Shown: piece after piece, positions 881-62,541 of the stretch
Position numbering within the stretch: position 1 is the stretch's first letter
Layout of the letters: every line of letters begins with the position of its first letter
Source of the DNA: Jaapia argillacea MUCL 33604
Taxonomy: Eukaryota > Basidiomycota > Agaricomycetes > Jaapiales > Jaapiaceae
NCBI GenBank assembly: GCA_000697665.1
Contig: KL197724.1
Span: 452,009 to 516,008, forward strand
Direction of reading: 5' to 3'
DNA length: 64,000 bases
Translations under genes and position numbers: made by a program
The notes under the pieces: model-generated
Seen by the model: only the letters and a program-made list of their open reading frames with translations
Database searches by the model: none
Told to the model about the DNA's origin: nothing

Positions 881-3779
881 TCATTCCTCCATCGCGTCCG
901 AAACTTGCCCTGTTGACGTTTCTTTCCAAAGCTCACTCCACTTTGGATAGATACGCTTGTACAAAGACATGCAAACTGTGTCCATCTGGCTCATAGGACC
1001 ATCAAAGTGGGCCTTGAAGTACCCATGTGTGCCAAGCGACTCGCGGATATGACCCGATCGGCCGTACTTCGTGTGCAATTGGATTGGAGCAAAGTACTTG
1101 ACATCGTCTGGGGAGGGTCAAGTATCAGTCAAGCATTTCAAAGTAACGGAAAGATCAAGACTCGCCAGGGTTGAAGAACATGTATCGGACGGTAGCAGTT
1201 TTCTTGTGAATTTTGAATGGATGTCCAGTTAAAATGATGCGCTTGGCAACCACACGGGTTGGGTCGGGATTCAGGAAAGAACCCATGGCCACAAGTTCTG
1301 GCGCTAAAAAAAAAAATATATGATTCGTGCGAATCTCGTAGCATGTCGAGCTAACCTTGGGAATTGGACGTCTCTCGTAGCAGCAAGCAGGGCTGCTTCC
1401 CAAAGACCACGGGTCCATAAGTTGTAGCCACGCAGGTGACCCCATGATGTAGGTAACGTTCAAATTTATGAACATTGTTGGAGCCTTTCCCGCCACCTCG
1501 CGTGTGCTGACTGTACACGGGATTTGTACGGAGTCGTCGAGGGCCCACACACAAAATGAGAGGATCCTGTGATATACGATGTGAGTAAGTAGATAGGAAG
1601 GCGGTGAAGAGATCTATACCTTTGAACGCACAGATCCTTCGTACTCGGTGTTTCGTTGGACTGTGAAGTTCAGGACAGTCTTCTTGTGTTCGTGCTGCCA
1701 GAGACCGAACAGGACAACAGGATGCTGGGCATCTTGTTGAGCAGCTTCTTGCGGTACGCCACGGAGATAAATTGTGACTTTTGTTCCAGGCTAAAGTTGA
1801 ACAGGATGAGTATATCTCCAGACGCGATGAATGCACTGAGCGACAACGATATACCTCAACGCTGACTACCTCTTCATCAGCCCTCCGCCTGACACTGCGC
1901 TCCGTCCGCTTGAAATCCTCAAACTGGAAGATCCGAGCATAATCTCTGGGGAGATTCTCATATGGGTCCCACGGACTTGTGCGGAATGACCTGAGACCAC
2001 GATAACGCTGGAATCGTACTCGAGCCGATACGTCCCTTGGGGTATCGATCTCGTCGGGGAACGCTACATCGTCCTCTTCTTCTCGTTTGCGATTTCGCCA
2101 CTTCTCAAGTCTAAAGTTGTGGCGAAGTGAGTTAACACGACGATTGAGTAAGGTAATAAGGGTAGACCGACTCTTTCTCCTCGACCTCCATGTCGAGATC
2201 TTCAAAGGCGACACTTTTCCGACTCTCCATCTCCATCTCGTTATCATCCTCAATGACGGGGACGTCCCTCATCTCTTCCTCCTCCATATCAACTTCACTC
2301 CCCTCTTTATCACCGTCCTCATCCCCTTCCTCATCTTCATCATCATCAAAAATCCAAGCAGCTTGATAATCGCTTGTGCCTTTGGGAACCCGCTTGACAC
2401 GTCTCGGTGTCGTCCCATCCTTTGCATCTGGGACTACATTCTTTTCCGAGGCGGTGAGGGATCCCTTCATTTCTTCTTCGGTAGGCCACGTTTGCTCGTT
2501 AGCCATGTCGTCCGGATCATTACTGGATACCAGGGAATCTGCAGAGGATGAATCGGGTTCTGCTAAAAGGGTGGGTTCGATATCCATCTCGGATTCATCT
2601 GATCTGGCATGACGGGGTAACGGGGCAGACATGATCTAACAAAAATCCGATTGAGCGTCACAACGAACCGCGGAGAGAGATAGTCGCCAACTTTTGATAT
2701 TTGGAAGTCTCCAAAGTTAGGCAGATGCATCAATCGATTCGGCGATAATGCAGCACCCCTCACAACCCCAGTAACACACAAAACACCCTCCTCCCACTCA
2801 GCTTTCTCACTCAGCACCCAAGTCCTTCCCTCTCTCCACTTTACATCCGTAGGCTTCCCTTCGCACAACGCCCGTAACGCGTTCAAGCGATCCGCACTTG
2901 CATGTAAATCGAACACTCTCGGTAAACTCGGCACAAAATATTGCATGAACGATAAAAGCGATTTCAAGATCCCCGCACGTTCTTTTTGTGGGATGTCAGA
3001 GGAAGGGGAGACTACGGATACCACTTCGGGTAGACCTTGAGCTTGTAGGATTCGGAGGAGGGTGTCTCCCCATGTGTTAACCTCGACGGTTGGGGATAAG
3101 ACAAATAGGACGTAATCTGCGGCTTTGCATGCGTCCATGGCTGCATACATTTGTTTGTAAGGAACGTTGATGAACTGTAAGGAAGTCTTAAACCGATCTG
3201 CCCTAACGACACCATTCTCAATTCCGACATTCACGAGGAGGTTGGCGAAATGACGAACCTCATTTTCAGTAAACCATTCTGAGAAGTCTCACCAGGGGGG
3301 AGATCGAGGCTCTCTGCGAGAGCTGCAGTAATACCGAGGGGGTCGATATCCGGCGTGAGGGGGATGACAGCAACGATCCGTGGGGCCCCATCGACTCCGC
3401 TGAAAATGCGAGTGGCATAGACGAGCGATTGTCGTTTTTTGAGTTGAGTCTGCTTTGCGTTGTTCCGCCTGTTTAATCGTGCTTGGGCTGCAGAGGGTGA
3501 ATTTGGGGAGGCTTTGGGGGATTGTCGGACGATGCGACCTGTGAGGGGAGAGATTTGAGGTCAGAAATCCGATCGGGGGGGGGATCACATGAATGATTAC
3601 AGGGATACGAGGCAGGAAGCGAGACTCACCTTTGGCATTTCTCTTCACTTCAGATTTTGTAGAGTGTCTCGATTTGAAGGCTTTGTTTTGCTGGAGTGCT
3701 CTGTTCTCATCTGGTCTCTTTGACATCCGAGCAAACTTACCTGCTTTAGCGTCGGTCGGTGACGATGAGCATCGGGCAT
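881..3779 (-). CDS. TSR1: Ribosome biogenesis protein Tsr1 (BMS1/TSR1 family)
   Basis: Tsr1 is a GTPase-like factor, catalytically inactive in known members, that rides on pre-40S ribosomal particles during cytoplasmic maturation. The start at 3779 gives [13 protein letters not shown]. After an intron come [20 protein letters not shown], the conserved basic N-terminus, then the G-domain-like region ([19 protein letters not shown]), an AARP2CN-like segment and a long acidic stretch ([16 protein letters not shown]). The conserved core carries [20 protein letters not shown] and [19 protein letters not shown]. The C-terminal barrel has [30 protein letters not shown] and the ending [15 protein letters not shown]. 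The gene has at least seven exons and looks full length. It diverges from the F-box gene at 4420 with about 640 bases between starts. Confidence 0.93.
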
Positions 3780-6838: not shown

Positions 6839-8434
6839 ATGAGTTCTGAGGCAAGCGATTCCTATGCCTACAACGAACCTCCGCTCTCTCAGTTACTCAG
6901 CTTCTCGTCGTTCCTCCTTCTATTGAACCTTTCTCGTACCCTAGTCGATTTCTTCATCAATGGAGCTGGACTACTCGGCGAGATGTTTGTCGGTATGGTG
7001 TTCGGGCCACCCCTGACTGCCATCCTTGATACCTCTTGGTTGAGTGCTATCAACGTCTTAGGTTACGTAGGACTCTGCGCAATGGTGCTGGAAGGTATGC
7101 CAATCGTCGATTTTTCAAAGAAGCGCGGAGGTTGAGTCTCGGATGACCTTGAAGGCGGGCTGAATACTCCTCTCGGACACGCCCTCCCATCCTTGCCTCT
7201 CTCGATTTGCGTAGCCATCACAGGCATTACATTCCCCATCTGCATCTCCCTCCTCTACTTCAATCTATTCCTTCACCCTTCCTCCACCCTCCTTGACTCC
7301 TTTGCTGCCGGTGCGGCTCTCAGCTCAACAAGTTTGGGTACAACATTCGCTGTGATCGGCGGTTCTGGGTTGGCCAAAGGGAAGTTAGGAGCAGTCTTGA
7401 TGACTGCTGCGATGGCAGATGACGTTGTCGGGCTCGTTCTCCTGAAGGTCGTGGTCGTTCTTGGCCAATCTGACCACTCACACTCCATTGGGTGGATTGT
7501 CGCGAGACCAATCGTAGCTTCTGTCGGGTTAATATTTATTTCGTGGATACTCGCTCGTTGGGTTCTTAAGCCTACGATCGCAAAGATCTCAGGTTGGATG
7601 CCTGAAGATCGGAGACATGAATTTAATTTCATCGTCATCGTCCTCACAACAACAGGATACATAGCAGTGGCAAGTCTAGCGGGGACAAGCGTCCTCCTAG
7701 GCGCATTCATCTCTGGTATCGTTCTCGCATCCATCTCACAATCCTTACCGCCATCCTTGCCATCCTTCCAATCAACCTTCGCACTCCTCATCAGCCCCCT
7801 CCTGTCTACATTCCTCCAACCCGTATTCTTTGCCAGTATTGGGTTTGCTATACCTGTAAGGAGAATGTTCGAAGGGAGATTGGTTTGGAGGGGGTTGGTT
7901 TACGCTCTGCTGATGATGGTGGCCAAGATGGTCACAGGAGTTTGGGTGCCTATCGGGGAAGCTCTGGATAAGTGGTGGATAGTGCGAAAGAAATGGTTGA
8001 AGGACCGCGGGAAGGTTGATGGAAAGAAACCAGACAGTTCAGAGTTGCAGAAACTTGACTCTGCAACCGTCCAAAATGGACACTCAGTGACTGGACCACC
8101 ATCGTCCAGCTCAAACACTCCTGCTGCCATATCTGCCGCTCAACCGTCCCCTCCGCAATCTCCATCTCCCTCCCCACAATCTTCATCTCCCTCCCAAACT
8201 CCCGAACCACCTTCATCACTTCTCATCCCCTCCACCCTCCTCTCCCTCGCCATGGTCGCTCGAGGCGAAATAGGCCTCCTCATCGCTCAACTCTCCCGTT
8301 CCGCATCCCTCCTCGACGAAGACCTCTTCTTGATATCTGTTTGGGCAATCGTGGTTTGCACGATTGTCGGACCCGTTGGTGTTTCATGGGTTTGCCGGAG
8401 GTGGAGAGAGAGGATGCCAGTTAGATGGGGGTGA
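6839..8434 (+). CDS. Cation/H+ antiporter (CPA family, K+ or Na+/H+ exchanger)
   Basis: This is an integral membrane exchanger of the Na_H_exchanger fold that swaps K+ or Na+ for protons at an organelle or plasma membrane. The start at 6839 is followed by helices LLSFSSFLLLLNLSRTLVDF, GEMFVGMVFGPPL and VLGYVGLCAMVLEG. One intron (about 7097-7157) joins VLEG to GLNTPLGHALPS. The following exon holds the core: SSTSLGTTFAVIGG, the ion-site motif MADDVVGLVLLKV with paired Asp residues, GTSVLLGAFISGIVLAS and LQPVFFASIGFAIPV. A Ser/Pro-rich cytosolic loop (about residues 385-445) precedes the last helices and the end near RMPVRWG. At about 490 residues it lacks the long C-terminal cytosolic domain of yeast Kha1-type proteins. 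The transported ion cannot be read from sequence. Confidence 0.85.
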
Positions 8435-32842: not shown

Positions 32843-35262
32843 ATGGCGTTCATCCTGACAAGACCGCCGTCCCCGTCCCCGAGGGACCGCGAGAGTCACC
32901 CTCATACAGCTGCAGACGTCGATCAGCTCAGTAGCGCACTTCATGCTGCTCTGTCTGGGACCTCGTCTACGGGTTATCCAGAGTACGAGATGCCCAAGGA
33001 GAAGGAGAAGGCCCACTCGACGTTGGAGATCGTCGTCAATTCTGACACCCTCTATCTCAAAGGCATTGGTCTTGATGTCGAGCCCACGCTACTCGCTGGG
33101 AATGTAGTGCTGCACCTGACGGAGCCCATGTCCATCAAGGAGATAAACCTTGCCTTTCGAGGGAAGGCCCGTTTGCCATCTCCTTCCAACGATCCGTGCG
33201 TATATCCTCCAAATACCCCATTGTCCATCCCCTAATTCCGCTTTTCAGGATCTCGTTGAACAATTCTTCTGCAAATTATGTCGTGTGCAGTCACGAATGG
33301 TCGTTTTTGGAGGGGGAGAAGAAGCACAGCCATACTCTGAAAGCTGGTCGCCACCTTTTCCCCTTTCAGCTGCAGATCGGCGGCTCGCTCCCATCCAGCA
33401 TCTTCACCAACGTATTGGGTGGCGCATCCGTACATTACAAGTTACGAGCGACAGCTGTCCGCCCAGGATTCGCACATAACCTCCAAGCCGTCATCCCGAT
33501 AACGATTATGCGGACATTCCAAACGGAGGCACTGGAATACCAACAAACGCTGGAGATCGAGAATACATGGCCGGAGAAACTCATGTATTCCATCATGATT
33601 CCTCACAAAGCTTGGGCCGCAGGAGACTCCCTGACTGCCGTCGTCAAATTTTCTCCTCTCACAAAGGGGACTCGCGTGCTAAACGTTCATACGACCTTGA
33701 ATGAGACGACGAAGCTACACGTACGTTCTGGGGTACAGGAGAATACTCGGATCATTTCCACGACGCGACATGACATTATCGAGGGGAAGGCCTTCTGTAC
33801 CGAAGAGTATCATCACCGTTTCCGACTACACGCTCATGGCCATCAGAACGGCCACTCGACTCCTCGCATTTCACAATCCGGGTCAGTTACTCCTTTCTCG
33901 AACCAACAATCTTCGAGTTCCCTTAATGGTTCGAGTGCGGGCTATTTTACCCCTCCCCATTCGCACTCAGACGAGATACCCACTAGCGCCCTGACGCATG
34001 CAGAAAGCAGCTCTGGTCCTTCCAGTAGTTCAGCTTCAGTCATTGGGCAGCGAAGTTTCATCGACCCCGACATTCCAGACGATATCGAGCTGTCGCAGGA
34101 CGACGTAATCACGACATTACAAATTCCCATCCCCAGTTCCGCTACACCTACCCATTCCCTCGATCCCATCGTCGTTTCATATCGGATACGATGGTCAATC
34201 CTCATCGGTAACAAGGACGGACACACGTCTGAACTTCGCTGTTCGCTACCTGTTCATATTCTTGATCCGCATCTACTAGATGAAGCGAGATCTGCGACGG
34301 CTGCTACTAGGCGGTTGGTACTCGGCGGTTCCGACACACCAGAGGAGGAGGAAGAAGAATCTGAGCTCCCCAGCTATCCAGCGCACGTGAGGGATAGAGT
34401 GGCCAATATGTATATGCCGGAGGGATCGTTGACGGTGGCCAATCCTTGGGTTGTGCAGGGCGTCAGCCCGATCCTGGCGCACCCAGCCGGTTCGAGAACT
34501 CCTTTTACGACAATATCATCAGGAATCGCATCTCCTTCCAACGGTCATGAGCCGGTGGCGTCATCTGGTTCTAGTACCACTTCTCCACCTGGTAACCCGA
34601 CTGCACATTCCGCATCTGGGGCCTCCATCCCCCTGGATTGGGTCAATTCGGAACTCCTCCTCTCTCTACAAGGTTCAGAGAACGGAACCAACGGCTTGAC
34701 CGAGTCCCCCACAGGATCAAACCCCACTACACGATCATCAAGTCGACCGGAAAGCCGGAGACAAAGTCGAAGAGGGAGTCGAGCTCCATCGCCAGAGCGT
34801 GGACATGCGAACGAGACATTCGTCCACAGCAGTTCAGCAAGCCGTGGTCAACATGGCTTATTCCACATCTCCATGAAACCCTTCACTTCCCTTTCCCAGA
34901 CTTTCAATATTGGGAATCGCGGGCACACACATTCACCAGTCCATACGCCAAATGTCACTCAACATATGTCTATGGATCAACATCGGCATCATCAGGCTCA
35001 TGCGGTGATGGGAACTCCGCAAGATCCAAACTCTGGTCCTTTGCTTTTGCATCGAGCTTTTACGGAGGTGCCGAATTATGAGATTGCGTCTCGTGGTTTC
35101 TTGGGTGGGGGTGTGCCTCCTTTGGAGAGCTGGAGAGGGTTGCCGTCGTATGAGGAAACGGAGAGGGGGAACTTGCCTTCGGTTTCGAGTGATAGTGATC
35201 TTTCGAGTCGGTTCTCTCAGGCATCTAGGGCTCCGAGTCTTGCGAGCGTGATTGGGTTATAG
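32843..35262 (+). CDS. Alpha-arrestin (arrestin-related trafficking adaptor)
   Basis: Such adaptors recruit a Nedd4/Rsp5-type ubiquitin ligase to membrane transporters and trigger endocytosis. The start at 32843 leads to the arrestin N domain: STLEIVVNSDTLYLKGIGL, GNVVLHLTEPMSIKEINLAF. After one intron (about 33199-33249) come SANYVVCSHEWSFLEGEKK and AGRHLFPFQLQIGGSLPSSI. The arrestin C domain follows (LMYSIMIPHKAWAAGDSLTA, RVLNVHTTLNETTKLHV, SYRIRWSILIGNKDGHTSEL). The C-terminal third is Ser/Pro-rich and disordered. Two LPSY motifs, ELPSYPAHVRD near the end of the C domain and GLPSYEETE near the C-terminus, are variants of the PY motif that binds the ligase WW domains. About 790 residues, intact. 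Confidence 0.88.
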
Positions 35263-37459: not shown

Positions 37460-38843
37460 GGTTGTTGGTCTCCAAGCGATTTTTGGGAGGAAAACTTGGG
37501 ATGAAACCTGGATAAACGAGTCGGACTGACCCTTGATAACCACTCAGCAAGGCGTCCAGCCGAGTGTTACCAGCCAATCGGATTGGCGTTTGGCTAGAAG
37601 CCGGATTACCAATTGCAAACTGCCTCGGAAATGCAGTGGCGTCTGCTGTCGAGGTCGTTTGCCATGTTGTTCTCCGTGTCCTCGTCGTCGTTCAGCTCAA
37701 CGAAATCGAACAGTAGCAGGGGGAGGAAGGCGGTTGAGTTATTACTGGCCCCGGGAAGTGATCCCAAGACAGGTTACATAACTTAGCCTTTCTCCTGCGT
37801 TGCGTACATTCTTGGTTCTCACTCCCAGGCAGTGCCCATCTGACCTCCCACCCATTCAATCCGTCTCTTTGCTGTGCAGGTACGTGCCTTTCCACGCGAC
37901 TTCTACTATGATGCTGACTTTCGCAGGCCTTCACCTCTTGTCAGCCTTCCACCACTCACCATGATGATCCTACCATGGCTGTGGATGCGTGTCCAGTTTC
38001 CACCAAATATTCTGGCTCCAGTTGGCTCCGGTTCTATGGCATACCTCCCGCTACCCTGCCGTGTGCACTATCGTGGAACCTAGATTGTCCGATCAATGTC
38101 AGGCATCTGTGGCCCCCTGTCGATCCAAATCCACCTTGTACAGCTACGTTCTCGTCCTTCACGGCCAGGGTATTGCTGGGTCTAATCGTTCTCAATCTCT
38201 CCTCGGAGGTGAAATATTCATGGCGCAATCCGTGTACATTGTGGAATAATCATATCTCCGACTCTCTTTCTGGTTATGCAGGGTACAGATAATCCCAACT
38301 GCGTGGCTATCTCAATTCCTCAACCAGTGCGCCAGACTTGGCTTCTATCTCGAAGACCACCACATCTCGGAATCCCATTGCCTCACCTCCGCGTAACGCC
38401 CAGGAGACACTCCTCATATTCCCCTAGCATCCTTTATCCCCCTCGCCGCAGCACCACCTTAACCAGCGCTCCGAACGCTCCGAACACAGCTCTCGGACCC
38501 TTCGCATGGAGCAAGTCTCGACTCTCACCCACATAGACTTTGACAACCCATTCTGGCAATTAGGCGCTCGTTATGATGGCTATGTGACCTTACACCATGA
38601 CGCCATAAACGTTCTCTCAGGCCGCTGCCTCGTAGTCCCCGACTCCGCCCAGGAAGACACACAGGCCAACAACACAGCTTCCAGAATTTTGACACAGGTC
38701 TGATCTTATCGTGGAGGCAGTTCGCCAAATCCGGTAATTCGCGACCTTCTGGCGGACTGTATAAATATTTGATCTCCTCTCTCTTTCGTCTGCCCATAAC
38801 TACCCACACTCACCACACACTACATTCTCACTCAAACAACATT
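37460..38843. other. 1.4-kb region with possible gene remnants
   Basis: Plus-strand frames at 37874-38703 show some coding character, for example VQIIPTAWLSQFLNQCARLG at about 38283 and FDNPFWQLGARYDGYVTLHH at about 38541. They lie in different frames separated by stops that no consensus introns remove. They may be a decayed gene or unresolved exons. No family is recognised. Confidence 0.35.
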
Positions 38844-39594
38844 ATGGATCCTTATTATCAATGGCAACAACCTTGGTACCCTTCCCCTCCTGGTGCTCAA
38901 ACTTATCTCCCTAATCCGTATCCATCCGTCCCCCCTGGTTACTGGACACAACCACCCAATGGAGCGTGGAACCAACCAGCTCCCAATCCCACAGGTACAT
39001 TCCCTTCACTTTCCTTCTCTCCAAACAATTCATCTGACTATTTTTGGCTCGTTGTCAGCCAACGCACCGCGATCTCGCAAATACCCATCTCTCAACCCAA
39101 TCCTCGCATCTGATACCACCCTCATCCGCTATGACATCCGCAAAGAACCCTCCTCCTCCATCCTTGCATCCACTTTCACTCAATACCGTAACGAACGAGC
39201 AATTTCAAACCCTACAAACCACCTCCGTCTCGTCTGTAAAGACTTCCCTTGGGTGATCGAAATCAAATTACCAACGGGCGGTCTATTGACGTGCGAACAC
39301 GTCTGGCAAGCTATCTATAACGCACTTCAAGTTGATATCGTTGATTCGGAGTGGGGGATCCTCGTTGTTTGTGGTGGGAATAACCAAGAGGATAGGAGGA
39401 AAGGGATGTTGAAAGCTGCAAAGAAGAGAGGGGATAATTCGGGAGGACCGGTGAAGATGAAGAGGATTGATTGGTTGGGAGATAAGACGATGTTTAAAGG
39501 GTTGGATAGGGATGATGGTTTTGCGGAGAAGATGATCATGCCTGGGACGGATAGGTGTGATGAGACTTGGGTTATCAAGTTGGGAGATCGGTGA
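38844..39594 (+). CDS. Basidiomycete protein with Pro/Tyr-rich head (DUF6699-like)
   Basis: The start at 38844 gives MDPYYQWQQPWYPSPPGAQT, a Pro/Tyr/Trp-rich disordered head of about 50 residues. One intron (about 38995-39058) leads to PSLNPILASDTTLIRYDIRK, LRLVCKDFPWVIEIKLPTGG, LTCEHVWQAIYNALQVDIVD and a C-terminal DETWVIKLGDR. A hydrophobic opening with N-P-x-L, then W-x-I-x-[VI] and a V-x-x-A-I-Y helix resembles the small basidiomycete domain annotated as DUF6699; this assignment is from memory of the pattern and is moderate at best. Function is unknown. About 230 residues. A CT-rich tract just upstream fits a promoter. Confidence 0.65.
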
Positions 39595-41830: not shown

Positions 41831-43339
41831 ATGCACGCGTTACAAGTAGGCTGACACACCCTAACCATCCAACTATTATTCTAACCCATTTGTGGACAGC
41901 AACAATACTGGGCAGTCCGTGAATACTTGAGTCCCGTGCGTCGTCTTGTGCTTAGGGTATGAGGGTACGAGGATAACGTAACTGATTATCGTTGGTTGTA
42001 GGTGCTGAGGGAGAGTAAATTCAAGGAACATGGAAGGATCACTCCTGGTTCGTTTGTTGTCTTGTGCTTTAGGTTCGCGAGTTCCACTGATCAGTATGCT
42101 TCGATGGGGTTGATTAGAGGAATTTGTCGCGGCGGGCGATTTCTTGACATACAAGTTCCCCGTTTGGTCGTGGTGAGTCCTCCCCCTACTATCTTGACTT
42201 ATGCTTGACTCACCAAACCCACCCGATCATCCTTGTCTTTGACAATCAGGGAGAAGGGTGATACGTCCAAGGCTCGCGACTACCTCCCATCGGACAAGCA
42301 ATACTTAGTCACCCGAGGAGTTCCTTGCCTCCGTCGCGCGACCTCTCTAGTCTACACGGATGCCGATGAAGAGGCCGAACGGCTTCTCTCCTTCGGTGGT
42401 TCAGGCGGGCCTAACGACGGGGAGGACGAATGGGTGGAAACTCATGCTGGGCGAGCGGCTGGAGGTGATGGAGCTGCTAACCCTGGTGAGATACATGATA
42501 TTCCGGATGATGAGGATGGTGGGTTGAGTGGTGGGATGCAAAGTTTGAGTGTTGGTTCGGGTTTGGGCGGGAAGAAGGCTGGAGGGGCGGAGGAGATCCC
42601 ACCTGATTTGGATGAGATCCCGGATATGGAGGAGGAGGACTTAGAGGATGGAGATGAAGCGACTGCTGCTCCCCGATCAACACCCGTTGCCACTCCTGGT
42701 TCACGCGTTATCGATTCCAGGTATATCCCTTCTACCTCACTTGGATAATCTAACTTTCATAACTGAACACCTTTGCACCATAGCGAAGTAGAGGTAGCGA
42801 AAGGCAACCTCCTTCAAGTCCGCACTTACGACGTTATGATCACTTACGACAAATACTACCAAACTCCCCGAATCTGGCTGTTGGGTTATGACGAGAACCG
42901 TACGCCTCTCACCCCATCCCAAATATTCCAAGACGTTTCAGCCGATCACGCGTTCAAAACCGTTACGATCGAACCCTTCCCACATTCTGCGAGTTTGCAA
43001 GCGGCCAGCGTGCATCCTTGTAAGCATGCGAATGTGATGAAGAAGGTTATTGAGAGGATGAATTCGAGTGTTGTGGCTGATCAGCTGGCGAAGAGTGGGG
43101 CTCCGAGTGGGGGGAAGGAGGGAGGAAAGGATAAGGATAAGGAGGGGAAGAAGAAGGGATGGTTTGGGAGGAAGAGCACTGGGAGTAGTGGGACTGCTAC
43201 ACCCACTGGGAAGGATACGCCCCAGCAAGAAGAGGAAGAGGTGGAGGGAATGAGAGTTGACTTTTATTTGGTGGTGTTCCTCAAGTTTATCGCGTCGATC
43301 GTACCCACCATCGAAGTTGATTCGACGACGGCCATGTAG
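41831..43339 (+). CDS. ATG3: Autophagy E2-like conjugating enzyme Atg3
   Basis: Atg3 transfers Atg8 to phosphatidylethanolamine during autophagosome formation. The first exons are very short: MHALQ, intron, [12 protein letters not shown], intron, [16 protein letters not shown] further intron (42049-42118, ending TTAG) leads to [17 protein letters not shown]. Then come [20 protein letters not shown], an acidic flexible region with [10 protein letters not shown] and [16 protein letters not shown], and the E2 core: [19 protein letters not shown] and [20 protein letters not shown]. The active site lies in [13 protein letters not shown], where the Cys carries Atg8. It ends [21 protein letters not shown] Lys/Gly-rich insert sits between the active site and the C-terminal helix. 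Complete. Confidence 0.95.
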
Positions 43340-46149: not shown

Positions 46150-49118
46150 TCAACGATCATTCCCTTTTGAATCAACTTTGAATGCTCTCAGTTTTCTCAG
46201 CACCTTTTGAGCCTGGGGTCGCCTCAGGGGATCCTGATTCCAACAATCCTGGACAAGAGCCCACAGATCGTCCGTCATCTCGATGTCGGTCCTGGGAGCT
46301 GGACGATCTAGTCTATGACCGCCACAGACGTGTGCATTGACCTCCGACTCAGGTCTACCCCTGAATGGGTCCGTACCGCTATACAGCTAGTCAAGTGTGA
46401 ATGTCATTCGGGTTTGCAAGAGTATGAGCATAGATGACGAACCTCCCAGCAAATGATAGCAAAGGCGTAGATATCGGAAGCATGAGTGGCCCTAGAAATG
46501 CCACCAGTGTTGATCAGCTCAAGCATCTCTGGAGCCGTGTAAGGCAGTGTGTATCCGACGAGCTTCTCGACTGGTACAGTCATGGTGGGCTTCAAACTTT
46601 CGGCGATGGTAGCTAATCCAAAGTCGCATAGCTTGGCGTGGCCGTCCGGTGTAACAAGAATGTTATTCTGTTGTCATAGAGAGTCAGGCGTAACTTCGTG
46701 GAGAAGCCATCGAGGTTTCACTAACCGAGCTGATGTCACCATGGACTGCCCCAAGGGTGTTGAGGTACTTCAGACCAGCGGCGATATCCAGCAACTTATG
46801 GCGGTCGTCAATTACGAGGAAATGGACATCAAACTGCGCACCGACCAGTCTATCAATGTGGTAGTTGGATATTGTCCGACTCGTGTAAGTCCGCATATCT
46901 GTTCCAACCCATTCCAAGATCATTCTGGGAATTTGAACGGTTATGTCTTTCTTCACTTCGACCACACAATCCCAGACCCCATAGAAGCGCACGATAGAGG
47001 GATGGTTCAATTGCGACCAAAGCACACACTCCTGTCGTAACAACTGGACAATTGGGGGGTCAGCGATTCGGATAGACGTAGGGTCACTGTCCTGACCTTG
47101 CGGGCCCAATCGAGGACATCAGCCCTCTTTTCGCTCGTCAACGCGGCCAATGTCTTCACGGCAACTTCATCCTCGATGTATCGCTTAACCGTAACATTCC
47201 CTTCACCAGCTCCTTCTCGACACTCTGCAACACTCCCCTCAACCGCTCTCAACCACGTACCTCTAGCGACTGTCGCGAAGCCGCCAGAGCCAGCCGCTGA
47301 GCCTTCATCACACTTGATCTCACCATCAAACTTTATAGACGGAGGAAACTCATACGAGCTTTTCGATAAACTCAGAAGGATATCGAACGTTTGTTGTCGG
47401 ACACTCTGAACACTCTGAACCTCTCGGAATACACTGTTGGCGAACTGCGGATCTTGCATCCATCTGTGAGCCTGAACTCGAGACGTCAGCACTGGTGCAA
47501 TGGGACAAAGAACTTGTAAAAAACCTCAGAAAGGGCGCCTAAGTAACTAGCTGCGGCTTTCCCTCGCAATTGCGATATGAAACGACAGGCATCCGCAGAT
47601 TTTAACATGTCTTCCAGCCATCGTAAAAGGAGTTCCAGGGTATGGTGAGGAGTTGGTCTAAACTCGTCCTCGATTGGATCACGAATCTTGAAATTGACGA
47701 GCGTTTTCAGTCGAAAATATGTGGTGGTAGACTCCTTGAGCAACGCTCCCTTGGGTTGGGTTAAGAATCGAGAATCTGTCTGCCATTGAAAGATGCTCTT
47801 TTCAAAGCCCTGTTCAAACTGTTCGAGCTCATCGGGAACAGCAAACTTGCAGCAATTCCGGACTATGTCGAAAAGCGAATAGGGTGTGTACTCTGGGAGA
47901 AGGATCTACAAGGGCACTGTCAGATTGGGATGCCCACGCTGCTGAAGTGCCTCACAATTTTCCCACTAGAATTCTTGAATTCCTTCTTTAGCGAACGGAG
48001 GACTACTGTATAAGGTCGCAAGCTGATATTCAAATGCTCTTTCAGGTGTGTTCTTGTCAGAGAGTCGGCCTCGAAATCGGTAAAAAGAATCGTTCGCTCC
48101 AGCGAGACGTAAAGGTACGACCGGAACATCGAATTTGCGTGGAGGTATAGGACGAATGCTGGAATTTCTCAACGAGTAGTTTTGGAATAATCAATTGTAT
48201 AAGCGTACCAGTAACGAACGGGGACAATATCAGAGTGGCAAAACCATCATTGTCTTTGATCCAGTCTCTCAGCTTTGTTAATCGGGATTGTGGATCTGTT
48301 GAATATCAGGACCATGGAAGGTAGAGCTCAGTGAAGACCCACCGGTGACATCAGATGGGAACACTGTGTTGTGGTTGGGATCGCTCGGTGTCTCCTGTTG
48401 CATGGAGTCGATTGGATTCACTAAGTTCGTCACAGTTACGATGGGAATCTTTGATTCCTTCACGAACTTGTCATTCCATTTCGATACCTGAGTATGAGTG
48501 AATAGGCGGCCGTCCAACCCAACGACCACTCTCTTGATTTCAGCGGGTCGTTTCTGAGGATCGTTGAGTTAATTGGGAAACATGGCTGAGAGTTGGAAGA
48601 ACTTACATTAATCCAATTACTAAGCGATGTCATCCAATAGTCCGATTCCCTTGACTTGTTCATGAACGGCAGCCATAAATTGCTGGGGCCAGGGAATCGG
48701 CGAGCGGCGTGACTGAACTCGTCGAGGTCCACATATAGGTGGGCGAAGTGCATTGTGACGACAGCGGTCGCTGATCTTCCGGCGGGAAAGCTATGGATCT
48801 CGTGAGTACCTTGCACCAACGTTGAAAAGTTGGGAGACTTGCCCACATAGCCACTCGATACGCCGCTCTCTTGTCGAAAGGGGAGAGGCGTGCCCATTCT
48901 GATTCGGAATGACACTGAGGCGGAGCATTGTCAATTTGGCATGAAACAGCTGCCAGGAAGTGAGACTCACTAAACATCTATACAATTCGCTGCCATCAGC
49001 ATCCTAAGCTTCTTGAGCTTATCCGCTATTGACATCTTTCGGAAGGGAAGATTATCCAGTCAAGCTCTGTCCTATAGGGAAGGAAACGTACCTTCGCCTT
49101 CTCGCCTCCTTCTACCAT
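46150..49118 (-). CDS. Aminopeptidase P-like N-terminal domains fused to TKL protein kinase, copy A
   Basis: Start 49118, stop 46150, about ten introns, roughly 790 residues. Residues about 10-190 match creatinase-like domain I of Xaa-Pro aminopeptidase P: IADKLKKLRMLMAANCIDVY, VIPNQNGH, RRIEWLCGFPAGRSATAVVT, MHFAHLYVDLDEFSHAA, then KRVVVGLDGRLFTHTQVSKW and TVTNLVNPID. Domain II follows: RLTKLRDWIKDNDGFATLIL, MFRSYLYVSLERTILFTDF, LKEHLNISLRPYTVV. A linker (LEQFEQGFEKSIFQW) leads to a kinase domain: AAGSGGFATVARG, DEVAVKTL, CVLWSQLNHPSIVRFYGVW, GAVHGDISSNNILV, AKLCDFGLA, YTAPEML, ASDIYAFAIICWE and CWNQDPLRRP. No peptidase M24 metal-binding region was found. HGD replaces HRD (non-RD). One intron (48791-48842) uses a GC donor. 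The peptidase resemblance is by pattern, not by database search. Confidence 0.8.
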
Positions 49119-49238
49119 AGTGTAGATTTAGTTTGAGGGTGCTTGAGAGGAGGATAGCAGGCAGATTGAGGGTGTTCTTGATTCACCTCCAAAGCCAACC
49201 GAAGGGTCATAAAAAGGCTGGAATCCAGTCAGTTTGGA

Positions 49239-49519
49239 TTAACAATGAATAACATGCTGACGCTCAAGCGCGTTTACAGTGCTTGTCCCAAGGAGGAATT
49301 GAACAACTCCGTCGTAATCGGTGTTGACATTTGGAACCACGGCAGTGCCCCCCAAGATAGAGATACGCAAATTGGGAACTTCGACGTTGATGAACACTGT
49401 GGAAAGACAAGACCGCGAACATGAATCCGATTGATGCCATGGGTACGAGCATAATTGTTGGATGATTTGTCAGTCAGTGTGGGAGTTGGGATACGCTGAG
49501 GTCTGCTCAGCATCAGAGC
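49239..49519 (-). CDS. Possible small gene between the fusion kinases (minus)
   Basis: Unrecognised. Two exons join at an intron of about 55 bases (GTACCC to CCACAG, about 49399-49450) to give MLSRPQRIPTPTLTDKSSNN and then INVEVPNLRISILGGTAVVP, ending near TSTVNALERQHVIHC. About 73 residues. The second exon alternates hydrophobic residues like a beta protein. Coding status is uncertain. It might instead be a 5' extension or remnant of another gene. Confidence 0.3.
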
Positions 49520-49775
49520 CGTAGGGTTGACAGAAGGTCTGAATACAATTGCTTCAGGACACGGAGCTTGTTGTCATTGGGATCGCGGATATTCCACGTG
49601 GCCCCCTCCGTTGTTCCCAGCTCAACCTACCGTGTACACTGTACAAGCACGACCTTTTGCACGGCCTTTATCAGAAATCCTCGCAAAATCATCGGTCTCG
49701 TTCGTTCAATTCAGGGCACAAAATGAACTTACTTTTGGATGACGCTCGCAAAATGAGCTGTAATGCGTTGCTACC

Positions 49776-50020
49776 ATGTCCTCGTCAATCGTCAAGCTTC
49801 AGGTGATTGTATTCCCCTATTGTTCCGAAAATAGTGAGATCTCACCGTCAGCAGGCAGCATGAAGTCTCCAGGAATGAGTTACACAAGGCTGTGCACGAC
49901 GATCAGAGATCCTGCTCGATCTTGCTCGCGGACAACGAGAACAAGGTCGCGGACGTGAATATTGAGTTCCGCCATCAAGTCTCATCAACAGTGTCTTTGT
50001 TTCCTTTGCAAAGAGAATGA
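49776..50020 (+). CDS. Possible small gene between the fusion kinases (plus)
   Basis: Unrecognised. MSSSIVKLQ joins in phase 0, through an intron ending GGCAG near 49858, to HEVSRNELHKAVHDDQRSCS and ADNENKVADVNIEFRHQVSS, ending FPLQRE. About 60 residues. It is supported only by splice consensus and phase. A longer gene or non-coding leader is possible. Confidence 0.28.
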
Positions 50021-50236
50021 TAGTTTCGAAGGACTGCCAATACCTTTTGCAGAAACGCTTGTCTCAACCAACCAGATTCTCATGGTGCAGAGAGTGAGAG
50101 CTGAGTCGAGCGTCTAGGGCCATCTCATTGTCTGGCATGTTTATATCACCTCCGATCTTCGACTCAACTGCAACCACAAACTTCGACCCTCCATACAGAA
50201 GCGAAATAATCAAGCCCGTTGTCACCTAGCGCCAAA

Positions 50237-53140
50237 ATGGTATGTATTTTGCCCTGAACGTGTTTTTTCTCGCGTGCTGAAACTCCTTCAACTAGACGAG
50301 CTTGTCAGATCTCAGACAGCACATGTCCAGAAACGGCATCGACATCTAGTAAGCTGTATGATTTCCCGAAATTTGCCCTCACTCAACCCCCGTGCGTGTA
50401 AAGCGTTATTCCAAACCGAAATGGACATGGTACACCACTCAGTAGCTCCGAAAAACGGATTCGGCAGTTGTCGGGGTAGGTTTCAGACCCTTCTCTTGGA
50501 GCAAGGTCTGACGGAGAATGTGTAGGTTTCTTGGCACGTCTGTGACGGCTGCCGTTTCCCAATCAAGTGTAGAAGTCTTCGTGCACCTTGAAGAGTATCA
50601 GCACGCTATCGAATTCTTCCAAGCGCAAGGCCACTCAGATACTTGGGTGATTCGTCGAAACCCCTCCAACGATAGGGACTTTTGGATGTCTGTCCTGAGC
50701 ACACAGATGCTTGCCAGTGTAAGCTCGTCCACCACTACATAGCTCTTCAGCCTCCTGAAAGTTTCCATAGGGGGAGAGGCCGCGGGTCGGACTAGATGAC
50801 AATCTCTTCACTCACAGACAGGTGGAAACCTGGATAAATATGTCATCCGTTGTACCTGTTTCAATCGACCTGCTACCATCACAGGACTGTCCGAGATCCC
50901 ACCCGTCAACCGTTTATCCTGTTGGGGCTACACGTATGCCTATTTCTTCTTTGATCCTGACCAGTTCTAATTTGCTACAGAGCCCGCATTGCCTACGGAG
51001 AGACTGCAAGAGCTCCGAAATTGGGTCAATCATCACCATGGGTTTGCCACGATTGTCTCCGCCTCTTTTTCCATCGGTGGGTTCTAGGTCTTTTCTCACC
51101 TCGGTTCGACCACTGATAATGTTCGGGTGTAGCATATGTACTCTGCCTCAAAGCGGAACCGATGATTCGATCGTACCTCTACGTCGCTGTGGACAGATAT
51201 ATTCTTTTCGCCGATTCAGCGTTTGACTCCGGAACAAAGTTGTATCTCGAGAACACATTGGGGGTCGAGTTGAAGCCATACAACGACATCTTCACCTTCG
51301 TGTATCCTGGACCAAAGGATCGAAAGGTACGCCCCGATGTCACTTCGCTCCTTTATTTTCTAATTCAATTTGAGATAGATTCTTCTACCTTTGGAATCCC
51401 CTCACTCCCTTGTTAGATGGTTGGATAGGCAAACCGACCCGCCCTACTACGAGTATCCAGCGCCGCCGTTCCCAGCCGGGATGGAACAGTACCAGGTTGG
51501 ATTTGAAAATAGTATAAGGCAATGGCCATCGGCTTCGAAACTTCTTCACCAACCACCCGAAAACCGTATCGAGCTTCAGTTGTCCACAGCAAAATACTTC
51601 ACAAAAGGCACTGTTGCTGACTTCTCCCTGCCTGCTTCAGATGGGGACACAGTCACCTTGGATAACGGCCCCGCTTGCGATATGATCTTCACCTGGTTGT
51701 TGAACATGTTGAAGTCAAGTGAGGCATCTCGGTTCCTCCAGCAATTACGAGGAACGGAAGCGAGGGAATATCTGGATGCCTTTCAAATCAATGTACTTTC
51801 AGCTCGCTTTCTCACTGTTCATCTTACTCAATACTGTGGTTTTAGATTCTAGACTGGCTGCGCCGAACGGGAAATAGAAGCAGGCTCTCAATTCCATCAG
51901 CAGAGGTGCTATCCATACCTCGCCGTGTCATACGTCTCCTCTTGAATATCGCGAAGGATGCTGACGAGATACCGGATTCGATGATAATCCACGAGGGTGT
52001 AACGTGGCAGCCTGGCGCAATGGATATTCTCCTCTACGGCGGCTTCAGCACCATCAAGCAAGGTACATACCAAGTTACATATCAGGGGCGCGTCTTCAAT
52101 TCCCTAGTCGCGGTGAAGTCTTTGAACGGATTGCTAGCGGCTAGTCCCGCCCAGAGAGCGAAAGCCCGTAGAGTAAGAGTGTCCCCAAGCCAATCTACCT
52201 TGCTGCGACGACTAATATTTGTGTCACTTTGTAAAGATATTATGTAACGAAAGCCTCCCATGGCGACAACTAGCTCACTCATCTATCGTCCGATTCTTCG
52301 GCCTCTGGGAATCAGAGGGTGTGCTCCGAATGATTATGGAATGGGCGGGAGAGAATAACCAATCAGTTGTTCCATTACGACAATTCAATCAGTGGCCCAG
52401 TGCCAGCCAGAGTACTAAAAGTTTCAATCAACTGGTGCGCCCTCTGAAACCACGCGGATTTTACTTACCCACATCATTTCAGCTGGCTGATATTGCCGCT
52501 GGCCTTACCTACCTTGAACATGTTGGTCTCGCACATGGTGACATTTCTGGAGTCAGTCGGATCCCTGCCTTATTTCTGGTCCCTTTCTGACAATTGCGAC
52601 ATTTCCGATAGAACAATATCCTTGTTAAGAGTGAAACTGTTGAAGGAGGACGAACCATCTACCGCGCTAAAATCTGTGACTTTGGGCTTGCGAGCCTTCT
52701 GGTTACTCTGACCACAATTCTGTCCTTGGAGCCAAGTCAGCCGTCCGGGCTCTGCAACAAACGGTACGCGGCTCCTGAGCTGCTTCGGAATTCCGGTACC
52801 ATGAAGCCCACTCACGCTACCGATATTTACGCATTTGCCATCGTTTGCTGGGAGGTTCGTGGCCATGCCAGAAACTTCTCCGAATAGTCTGACGAATTTT
52901 ATTTCAATGTAGCTATATAGCGGTAGGGACGCGTTCGCCGGGATGGAAGAAGCGCAATTCATCCACGAAGTCTGCACCGAAAACCGTCGGCCTCGACATG
53001 AAGCAACCCAGCGACCTCGCCGAGTGATGACGGATCAATTGTGGGCTCTCCTGGAGGTGTGCTGGCATCGGGATCCTGCTCGCCGGCCTAACGCTGGGTC
53101 TGCGTTAATGGCGTTGATGGCGTCGGCAAGTACACACTAA
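50237..53140 (+). CDS. Aminopeptidase P-like N-terminal domains fused to TKL protein kinase, copy B
   Basis: Head-to-head paralogue of the gene ending at 46150. The first coding exon is only the ATG (50237-50239). Domain I: TSLSDLRQHMSRNGIDIY, VIPNRNGHGTPLSSSEKRI, RQLSGFLGTSVTAAVS, VFVHLEEYQHAIEFF, FWMSVLSTQ, RVGLDDNLFTHRQVETWIN. Domain II: RLQELRNWVNHHHGFATIV, MIRSYLYVAVDRYILFADSA, LENTLGVELKPYNDIFTFV. Linker: MEQYQVGFENSIRQWPSASK. Kinase: LLYGGFSTIKQG (glycine loop eroded against copy A), SLVAVKSLNG, LAHSSIVRFFGLW, GLAHGDISGNNILV, AKICDFGLAS, YAAPELL, ATDIYAFAIVCWE, CWHRDPARRPNAG. Several introns fall at the same codons as in copy A. Catalytic Lys, Asp and DFG are retained; HGD makes it non-RD. 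No M24 peptidase domain was found. Confidence 0.8.
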
Positions 53141-53698: not shown

Positions 53699-54625
53699 AT
53701 CAGATCCAACAAACCGCTGTGTCCCTGTTCTGGAACTCCAAGACCCCCAACTCAAGGACATGGACATCCTTGTAATGCCCTTGCTTCGATACTGTCGGCG
53801 AAGTCATTGCTTTTATCCCACAAATTTTTGAGGTCAATTTGGGGCTTGGTTCCCAGAATCCCGATGCGCTGACGGCGTTCCTACTCATCGGTGGGTAAGT
53901 ATATTCCGCGTAATCTGACTGTGTTTTATGCAATATTTGCCAGGGACGTAAAAGGCACAAATATCACGCTCGATCCATCACCACTTCATCCGAATTCCTT
54001 CCATCTCGTGCACATGAACCGACAGCGAAGTTATCAGAGGGGAGCGAAGTACTCATTCATCGACTTTGGAATCTCCCGTCGATACCAATTTGGAGATGAT
54101 CCTTCCCAGAAGAAATCATAATGGGAGGTGACCAAAACACGACCAGGCTGTTGCGGAACGATTTTGGGCCAACCCGCTCCAAACCGTTGGTAATCTGTTG
54201 CGAACAAGGTTCATCCAGGTTTATCATCATTTGCTGTGGAATAACATCGCTGAACTTTGCAACCCACGTTTCGAATTCTTGAGTCCCTTGGTGGACGACA
54301 TGGTTCAGGAAGATCCTACGAAGCGGCCGAGGTCATTGATCGCTTTGCAGTTATCCGCAAGTCACTCAGCACCTCGAAGCTTCGCTCTCGCGTGGCAAAG
54401 CATTCGGACACCCTAGTAGTGGCCTTGTACTTCGCCATTGGACACTGCCAGATAAAACTGTGGTATATGTTATGGCGGCTTCCGGCGATTCCTGGTCTGC
54501 CCACCCCTCAACCAACGTCACCCCCGGCGGGATACCTGGATTTATGGCATGTATCAGAGGTCCCTTTCCTGATTCATCCTGAAGAAATACCAATGATACT
54601 GAGCGGATGGGATCTTCCTAAGTGA
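53699..54625 (+). pseudogene. Decayed kinase-like family copy 4
   Basis: Remnant of the family seen at 8731, 22496, 28384 and 56389. Recognisable pieces are TNRCVPVLELQD and ILVMPLLR at the hinge, KGTNITLDPSPLHPNSFHL, KYSFIDFGISRRYQFGDDPS (DFG intact), PLVDDMVQEDPTKR, and the tail KLRSRVAKHSD with RLPAIPG. The N-terminal WVPSW signature and the catalytic Lys exon are missing. The frame changes just after the hinge, a stop follows the DFG segment (near 54119), and a shift occurs at about 54320 between PTKR and the next helix. The last frame runs on about 40 residues past the normal family end. Not functional as a kinase. Confidence 0.8.
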
Positions 54626-60981: not shown

Positions 60982-62541
60982 TTGATGCCACCGGGAGTCC
61001 TCGAAAGGGCCCTGGAAGAAGGGGACTCCGAATCCTTGAAACTGCTTGAAAGGATGTTGAATTCACCTCGCATCAGTGACGATGTTCTTTTATCTAAGCG
61101 GGCACAGCCAAACTGCCTGGTGGATTTCTTACAGCTTGTAAGTTCCCCATTGGCTTCCAATATATTCACAAGAAAAACAACCGAGTTCTAGATCATGGAC
61201 AGCTCGTCGCCCGTACTGTCGAGTCCCTCGACCTTCGCGGCGCCTTATTATCAATTTGCTCAAAGACTTGATCCTGATCTTCGACGACGAATCGGAAGAT
61301 TTCCCGTTCGGCTTTCCGAGGCTTGGGACCTTCTGCCTTTGGCATTGCATGTCGACGGAGTTCAGTTACTATCGCGAGACCCCGTTGCTGGCGGAGGATT
61401 TGCTGATATCTTTCGTGGGACTCGTCACGACATGGCCGTTGCTGTCAAGCGCTTACGGTTCCACACCTTCTCAGAGGGTAAGCGTCGCGATGTTCAAAAG
61501 GTACGATTGTTTGTCCCGCTGCCTCGCCAGACTCAATTTATGGGTGATACAGCGACTCTACCGAGAGGCTCTTGTGTGGAGGCAACAAAGTCACCGACAC
61601 ATCCTACCTTTCCTCGGGATTGACAATAATAACAACTTCTCCCTCGTCTCCCCCTGGATGCAGCATGGCAGCGTCATCCAATACTTGGAAACATCTGGCA
61701 GAGAAAGCATCGAAGTGGTCCCAATCGTGGGTACAACTTCATTTCCTACAGATACTCAGGAGCTAATCCCGCCTCATCAACAGTTGTCTCAAGTTGCCAC
61801 AGGTTTAGAGTGGCTTCATGAAGAGAACATTGTTCATGGCGACCTTCGAGGAGTGAGTGGATTCTCCACTATCCAACATTTCTTCTTTTCTCGCTTTCTC
61901 ATTATCTGCAGGCCAACATTCTGATAGACGAAATGGGACAAGCCCGCCTTGCGGATTTTGGGTTGTCAATTTTTGCGGATTCGACTCGTGGTGCCTTCAC
62001 GACTTCATCTGGAGCCGGATCGACTCGGTGGATGGCTCCGGAGCTTATGCAACCGCAACAGTTTGGATTTGATCGTGCTCGTCGATCTCGTCCAAGCGAT
62101 GTCTACGCGTTTGGGCATGTGTGTTTGGAGGTGAGGGGTTCCCTCATATTGAACTGCATTCCATCCGCGTGTACATTGCATCCCTAGATCTATACCGGCC
62201 ACCCACCCTTCTTTGAGGATAACTCAGAACCGACCGTCATCACGAAGGTTCTTGCCGGGGAACGACCAACGCGCCCAACTGAAGACGATTGTCACGGACA
62301 TTGTATGTCTGATGAGTTATGGAGGTTGATGAAGCTGTGCTGGACCCACGACCCTGCCGGACGACCTTCGGCTTCCAAACTGATTTATGGCATGGTTAGG
62401 GTGGAGCAGTCAGGTAAGATATCCTCAAGGTTGGTCGAAGATAATCCGAACAGGGAAGAGCAAGATCTTCGGAATTCCCTTACATCGTGGAAAGCATTCA
62501 TTTCTGATCTTGAGGATATTGGAGGAGAAGATTCTGAATGA
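60982..62541 (+). CDS. TKL-type protein kinase
   Basis: The start at 60982 gives MPPGVLERALEEGDSESLKL and LERMLNSPRISDDVL, a short helical N-terminus, then an intron near 61140-61193. The kinase domain has LLSRDPVAGGGFADIFRGTR, MAVAVKRLRF, EALVWRQQSHRHILPFLGI, NIVHGDLRGANILI, ARLADFGLSIFAD, TRWMAPELMQP, SDVYAFGHVCLEIYTGHPPF and LMKLCWTHDPAGRPSASKL. It ends WKAFISDLEDIGGEDSE. Catalytic Lys, Asp and DFG are present, and HGD in place of HRD makes it non-RD. Introns split HGDLRG/ANIL and CLE/IYTG. A near-identical paralogue lies tail-to-tail at 63136. Substrate unknown; no transmembrane segment. Confidence 0.85.

Follow-up and report, generated by a model that had tools for sequence, protein, structure and literature searches.

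The stretch of DNA analysed here (the window) comprises 64,000 nucleotides of contig KL197724.1 of the basidiomycete Jaapia argillacea MUCL 33604 (C16:452009-516008 in our contig numbering) and carries a pair of genes, A and B, in which a segment resembling domains I and II of Xaa-Pro aminopeptidase P (APP) precedes a protein kinase. The pair lies where a preliminary description, made from the letters of the window, had placed two head-to-head genes: A and B are divergent, and their 5' ends are about 1.1 kb apart (Table 1). All APP motifs named in that description are likewise present, most clearly in B, where they read DKLKKLR, VIPN, RRIEWLCGF, SATAVVT, YVDLDEF, VGLDGRLF, RSYLYVSLERTILFTD and LRPY.

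Both genes were spliced by hand, each guided by the other and by familiar motifs of APPs and kinases, at a stage when no paralog had been found. Their introns measure 47-64 nt, have GT-AG borders and keep the frame at all boundaries; the sole exception is B intron 3 (window 48791-48842, minus strand), which is GC-AG (GCAAGT) at a place where gene A and the APP gene of the host have GT-AG. The two proteins are 35.4% identical over 790 columns (BLASTP, E 5e-135). The phases of introns 2-12 agree between A and B; nine of these introns share an alignment column, and the other two, next to gaps, are offset by 3 and 6 columns. A spliced aligner, run with protein B on gene A and protein A on gene B, agreed exactly with the hand model on 10 of 12 introns in each gene; its errors were one misplaced intron, one intron outside the alignment and two extra introns added. 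A gene-modelling artefact was considered and rejected on account of this recovery and of the hand models predating the paralogs.

Table 1. Features of the A/B pair, related loci and other genes of the window. Positions are those of the window unless a contig is named; E values are from Pfam.
Feature	Position	Strand	Remarks
Gene A	50237-53140	+	13 exons, 750 aa; 5' end least certain (exon 1 is the ATG alone)
Gene A exons	50237-50239, 50296-50348, 50404-50475, 50526-50718, 50771-50933, 50981-51076, 51133-51326, 51379-51792, 51846-52172, 52237-52434, 52483-52551, 52612-52854, 52913-53140	+	
Gene A domain I (Creatinase_N-like, residues 5-128)	50305-50833, introns included	+	E 1.1e-3
Gene A domain II (Creatinase_N_2, residues 167-261)	50995-51387, introns included	+	E 4.5e-7, above cut-off
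Gene A end of domain II, junction, linker	51388-52034	+	kinase-side module from about residue 300, motif S-[IV]-x-x-W
Gene A protein kinase domain (PK_Tyr_Ser-Thr)	52035-53107	+	E 4.2e-33; VAVK / HGDISGNN / DFG / APE intact
Upstream region common to A and B	49119-50236	.	divergent; about 1.1 kb between 5' ends
Gene B	46150-49118 (reads 49118-46150)	-	13 exons, 777 aa
Gene B exons	49118-49092, 49035-48971, 48914-48843, 48790-48607, 48553-48343, 48295-48209, 48158-47956, 47905-47525, 47471-47097, 47043-46846, 46794-46726, 46667-46443, 46386-46150	-	
Gene B domain I (Creatinase_N, residues 16-161)	48419-49017, introns included	-	E 2.8e-10, above cut-off
Gene B domain II (Creatinase_N_2, residues 189-303)	47846-48290, introns included	-	E 2.3e-8, above cut-off
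Gene B junction and linker	47292-47845	-	
Gene B protein kinase domain (PK_Tyr_Ser-Thr)	46189-47291	-	E 5.5e-35; VAVK / HGDISSNN / DFG / APE intact
Host APP	C16:282976-280305	-	Creatinase_N, Creatinase_N_2, M24 (1.6e-48), M24_C; ordinary cytosolic APP
Fusion C62_75	C62:75368-78149		very similar to C62_86
Fusion C62_86	C62:86763-89540		very similar to C62_75
Tsr1-type ribosome biogenesis protein	1354-3288	-	Pfam
Na/H exchanger	7136-8431	+	Pfam
Arrestin-like protein	33076-35259	+	Pfam
DUF6699	38800-39591	+	Pfam
Autophagy_act_C	42767-43336	+	Pfam
Open frame with partial TKL-type kinase domain	61142-61921	+	PK_Tyr_Ser-Thr 1.1e-9; outside the fusion pair

The preliminary description named, as support for its reading, Pfam matches to both N-terminal domains of APP without the catalytic domain, Peptidase_M24. 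Such matches are obtained for domain II in both genes and for domain I in B; in A the Creatinase_N match falls just below the cut-off (19.9 bits vs 22, rising to 21.4 in a scan limited to the first 444 aa). No match to Peptidase_M24 is obtained in A or B at E <= 10 (the HMMER filters drop most matches above about 0.1), and the two proteins are therefore not aminopeptidases. A kinase, provisionally of TKL type, follows downstream of the APP part in both genes, with its catalytic motifs intact.

Among structures in the PDB, the N-terminus of B matches worm APP-1 (2.5e-6) and human XPNPEP1 (3.6e-3); the N-terminus of A alone has nothing significant there (best 5jqk, 0.36). Both proteins match the host's own APP in BLASTP (A, E 4e-23; B, E 7e-19), and a profile built from ten N-termini of the family described below finds APP-1 at 5.6e-32, XPNPEP1 at 3.5e-27 and the Plasmodium APP at 1.9e-14. 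Together with the Pfam matches, these results place the proposed resemblance to APP domains I and II beyond chance. A Spt16-like origin is unsupported, Spt16 being absent among the eight PDB matches (E <= 10) of the N-terminal profile. A remnant of M24 in the linker is equally unsupported; the best PDB match of the linker profile (0.45) is an unrelated protein. The closest solved kinases to one paralog (C39_219) are an EGFR entry, a Src/Abl ancestor, B-Raf and RIPK1, of TK and TKL kind; judged by such matches, the kinase may belong to either group.

The architecture is not confined to the pair. The N-terminal 460 residues of B served as query against the genome (43.7 Mb, 95 contigs), hits with E values as high as 1 were kept, and the regions were then subjected to spliced alignment. 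The query found 13 further places, on contigs C62, C39, C2 and C14, and the spliced alignments yielded at least 25 loci. Twelve are further full-length fusions (C2_1760; C39_219, 257, 263, 273 and 294; C62_71, 75, 86, 99, 117 and 132), 11 of them on C39 and C62; three are incomplete fusions (C39_279, C39_288 and C39_302, the last at a contig end), six consist of linker and kinase (C14_185, C39_246, C39_259, C39_267, C62_93 and C62_95) and three are fragments (C39_241, C39_282 and C39_290). All these numbers are minima, since scoring was limited to the best candidates and alignment to their regions. All 14 full-length copies, A and B included, are free of stops and frameshifts in the models, and M24 is found in none of them at E <= 1. 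Ten exceed both Creatinase cut-offs and A exceeds one. Six paralogs have all 11 of introns 2-12 in common with A and B; five of these six carry one more at column 674, and in C39_219 there is an odd additional one at column 26. Exon edges in the paralog models are uncertain because of the aligner's errors on A and B.

Loci with linker and kinase, with and without the APP part, form dense clusters at C39 215001-304580 and C62 70001-137272, which reach the ends of both contigs. That these two ends are halves of one gene was rejected, the best match being 78.8% over 580 bases. The last of the 25 loci, C39_238 (C39:238752-241294), has a Creatinase_N match above the cut-off (3.5e-7) and a downstream kinase on the same strand (4.4e-28) in which HxD and DFG are not seen by eye; its model has a different middle part and two frameshifts, on account of which we left it out of the fusion count, and it may represent either a separate relative or one that has decayed. 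A search of the genome with PF01321 gave no match, presumably because introns break the exons; a first scan of a collection of genome contigs and a scan of viral contigs found no relative.

The N-terminal part of the fusions can be traced to a peptidase gene. M24 matches occur at ten places in the genome, six of which were examined for the HGTGHG motif and for likeness to the fusions. One of the six, on the same contig as the window and about 215 kb from the A/B pair, has the motif and matches the fusions (host APP, Table 1); further APP genes are possible because only six of the ten places were examined. The first six introns of the host APP, those of domains I and II, have phases 2, 2, 0, 1, 1, 0 and lie at columns 32, 58, 128, 207, 255 and 344. 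Gene B has the same six at columns 32, 58, 128, 209, 255 and 344 and gene A at columns 32, 58, 134, 206, 255 and 344, with identical phases. The matching introns support descent of the N-terminus of the fusions from a peptidase gene, as the preliminary description had supposed in speaking of a domain borrowed from a peptidase. The pattern is incomplete in some members (C2_1760 lacks the second intron, C62_117 and C62_132 the fourth) and altered in others (near the fourth, C39_273 carries an intron of phase 0; the third is 7 columns off in C62_75 and C62_86).

C62_71 and the host APP share 43.9% identity over 321 aa. In BLASTP the similarity of C62_71, C39_219, C39_294 and C2_1760 to the host APP stops at its residues 313-318; its M24 match starts at residue 320. 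There follows the junction motif S-[IV]-x-x-W, of which the S and W are invariant in ten fusions and the W is present in at least 90% of 23 aligned rows, among them kinase-only paralogs. The end of similarity, followed by a motif whose W is common to the loci with linker and kinase, puts the break at the domain border, within the host-APP exon that begins at residue 280.

Phylogenetic trees are consistent with this origin. With 22 of 78 bacterial APPs as outgroup and 11 of the 14 fusions (C39_273, C62_75 and C62_86 were omitted for their long branches), the fusions form one clade with support 100/99 beside the host APP, which fits a single fusion event followed by duplication. The three omitted members cluster together in the unrooted tree. 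There the host APP lies in an open fork with C39_294, C62_71 and C62_99, so that these three are ungrouped; in the rooted tree it stands outside all 11 fusions, and the three form a group (97/96). The tree of domains I and II and that of linker and kinase agree on A+B (94/97 and 93/94), C62_117+132, C39_219+(257,263) and C39_273+(C62_75,86); the APP part and the kinase have travelled together. That the two parts are one gene is supported by the conserved exon structure, the agreement of the half-trees and the 12 full-length paralogs. A copy of an APP gene was thus truncated where M24 begins, fused to a kinase module and then amplified. Both this origin and a family of at least 14 genes go beyond what the preliminary description had claimed.

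The borrowed domains have lost residues that are invariant in the peptidase. For comparison we used the best 80 of 586 bacterial APP matches, mostly from Proteobacteria, of which two frames shorter than 560 aa were dropped, leaving 78 long-form APPs. All 78 have the Asp of SEDAHGSEY, the Glu of SEY, the Asp, Arg and Tyr of DxRY, the Arg of RGxD and the Pro after the loop, and the host APP retains every one of these residues. Of the 14 fusions, only C39_294 has the Asp of the SEDAHGSEY stretch, and only C39_273, whose alignment is poor at this place, has the DxRY Arg (the residue is Glu in A and Asp in B). The Glu of SEY and the RGxD Arg are missing from every fusion, and all 14 have a deletion of five residues after RG. 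The DxRY Arg corresponds, by counting in the PDB alignments, to Arg77 of the human enzyme and Arg78 of worm APP-1, which is reported to hydrogen-bond the inhibitor in the worm active site (PMC4404410). The kinases retain the catalytic Lys of VxxK and HxDxxxxN in 14 of 14 fusions and DFG in 13 of 14, with GFE aligned at this place in C39_257. The missing peptidase half and the lost invariant residues thus define pseudo-peptidase domains on kinases whose motifs are intact in 13 of 14 members.

The fold-core motifs (YxIPN, SGF, VGxD and SYLYV) are retained in most members, as would suit domains that continue to bind Xaa-Pro peptides and signal their abundance to the kinase. We consider such a sensor very improbable: the catalytic domain is gone, the inhibitor-touching Arg of domain I is lost in 13 of 14 fusions and the RGxD loop is shortened in all 14, and this loss of substrate-contacting residues speaks against a simple Xaa-Pro peptide sensor.

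For five paralog pairs, neither A nor B among them, the dN/dS of domains I and II is 0.47, 0.36, 0.38, 0.16 and 0.11, and that of the kinase in the same pairs 0.21, 0.22, 0.42, 0.15 and 0.19; two of the pairs have dS > 1.4, and their values are rough. Domains I and II are, on these averages, under purifying selection. The APP part could also be a passive leftover that is carried along without function. Loci with linker and kinase that lack an APP part, and the weaker constraint in one pair, would agree with this; we regard it as quite unlikely given that dN/dS is below 0.5 in all five pairs, that none of the 14 copies has a stop or frameshift in its model and that the introns are conserved.

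A tandem arrangement of kinases was observed at C39:257018-261531, where the APP-fusion kinase C39_257, with GFE in place of DFG, reads in frame and without a stop into the linker and kinase of C39_259, which has DFG. The lack of a stop between them makes a tandem pseudokinase-kinase gene possible, and the two loci may be one gene with a degenerate and an intact kinase in tandem.

We interpret the family as kinases in which a pseudo-peptidase module, derived from APP in one fusion event that was followed by family expansion, controls or places an active kinase, and we give this reading a probability of about 0.6. The APP-derived part, its fold retained, would act as a protein-binding input module; through its partner it would hold the kinase off, or at a particular place, until the partner changes, and the linker would relay that change to the kinase. 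For the partner, the candidates are the host APP and a further member of the family. PID-5 of C. elegans provides a precedent: this pseudo-APP reportedly co-precipitates with APP-1, and a heterodimer of the two has been proposed (PMC10377022).

Several observations weigh against a controlling input module. The three most diverged fusions (C62_75, C62_86 and C39_273) are below both Creatinase cut-offs, and their column matches are uncertain. In the closest pair, C62_75 and C62_86, domains I and II evolve faster than the kinase (dN/dS 0.47 vs 0.21), and the input part is there under weaker constraint. The kinase module can, moreover, exist alone: no APP domain turned up in the 2.6 kb upstream of five linker-and-kinase loci, and the linker and kinase of C39_259 come second, after those of a fusion. 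A scan for upstream APP sequence at ten linker-and-kinase or fragment loci revealed none; the best scores were 38-49 (8 queries), vs 34-44 on reversed sequence (3 queries), with a largest excess over reversed sequence of 10 (C39_246).

Domains I and II may, as a special form of the input module that overlaps with it in probability, be a dimerisation module that pairs with itself, with family members or with the host APP and thereby leads to trans-activation of the kinases; we place this second, as a tentative possibility. In its favour, dimerisation activates TKL kinases such as Raf, and PID-5 reportedly co-precipitates with APP-1. The dimer interface of APP-1 is described as spanning the whole molecule, with a salt bridge Lys136-Glu301 that falls in domains I and II by the limits given in the same paper (1-163 and 164-318; PMC4404410). 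By contrast, Trp477, reported to be vital for dimers of human APP, sits in the catalytic domain that the fusions have lost (PMC10377022).

The uneven divergence of a clustered and expanded family, together with the double-kinase frame whose first kinase lacks DFG, could also be explained if the APP-like part were a decoy, a bait for foreign molecules acting on APP, and the kinase raised the alarm. The parallel is with plant kinase fusion proteins, in which a kinase is likewise fused to another domain and tandem kinases occur, and which are reportedly resistance genes in wheat (Sr43, Lr9; PMC10260397, PMC10260399); they differ in being plant proteins with a known resistance role. We hold such a receptor for non-self to be improbable. 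Clustered gene families are common, the five pairs all have an average dN/dS under 0.5, and no agent targeting APP came to light, though no search was aimed at one. The family would be a new group of fungal receptor-like cytosolic kinases, with a pseudo-aminopeptidase as integrated bait that watches the host's own APP or foreign molecules seeking APP, an idea to which we assign the same low probability; if true, the expanded clusters, including the degenerate and active double kinase, would form a recognition repertoire comparable to the plant kinase fusion proteins. We thus rank the partner-bound input module first and dimerisation second, and the decoy, the passive leftover and the peptide sensor lower.

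Among known systems, cytosolic Xaa-Pro aminopeptidases (APP-1, XPNPEP1; PDB 4s2r, 3ctz) share with the fusions domains I and II, in order and over their whole length; the fusions differ in having no M24 and so no metal site, in the loss of invariant residues in domains I and II and in the attached kinase. PID-5, a pseudo-APP joined to eTudor, is alike in being an APP relative predicted to be catalytically dead and reused in a regulatory protein. It retains a whole APP with a degenerate catalytic domain, in contrast to the fungal family, which has only domains I and II, and the word "kinase" is absent from the main text of the paper (PMC10377022). Expanded TKL or TK-like kinases, as in this genome, are described in mushrooms, for Laccaria bicolor (PMC2838846) and as FslK (PMC3937382); in the main texts of these two papers the word "peptidase" occurs 0 times, as does "creatinase" in that of PMC2838846.

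The preliminary description knew of no described example of such a fusion. Among the open papers listed on creatinase or aminopeptidase P with kinases in fungi this stands, as no such fusion appears there. It does not extend to subscription literature or database annotation, and uncharacterised entries with the architecture of APP domains I-II and a kinase may well have been deposited already. A creatinase aminopeptidase is named in shiitake, with no fusion mentioned in the part of the text available (PMC7558539).

The family clearly exemplifies the conversion of a housekeeping peptidase gene into a signalling input domain, and its origin is documented by a close relative of the parent gene on the same contig, by matching introns, and by peptidase residues lost and fold-core motifs retained. 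Since the fold of the input domain is known and its candidate partners are few, the family offers a handle on the signals to which the expanded and functionally obscure TKL-type kinases of some fungi respond. It would likewise demonstrate that domains I and II of APP are able to function without the catalytic domain.

The neighbours of the pair in the window (Table 1) were annotated with Pfam on 18 of the 121 frames of at least 110 aa and on two shorter ones. Just downstream of A, at 53873-54416 on the plus strand, frames that have no Pfam match at E <= 0.01 resemble by eye pieces of a kinase (FIDFGISRR and, further on, DPTKRP).

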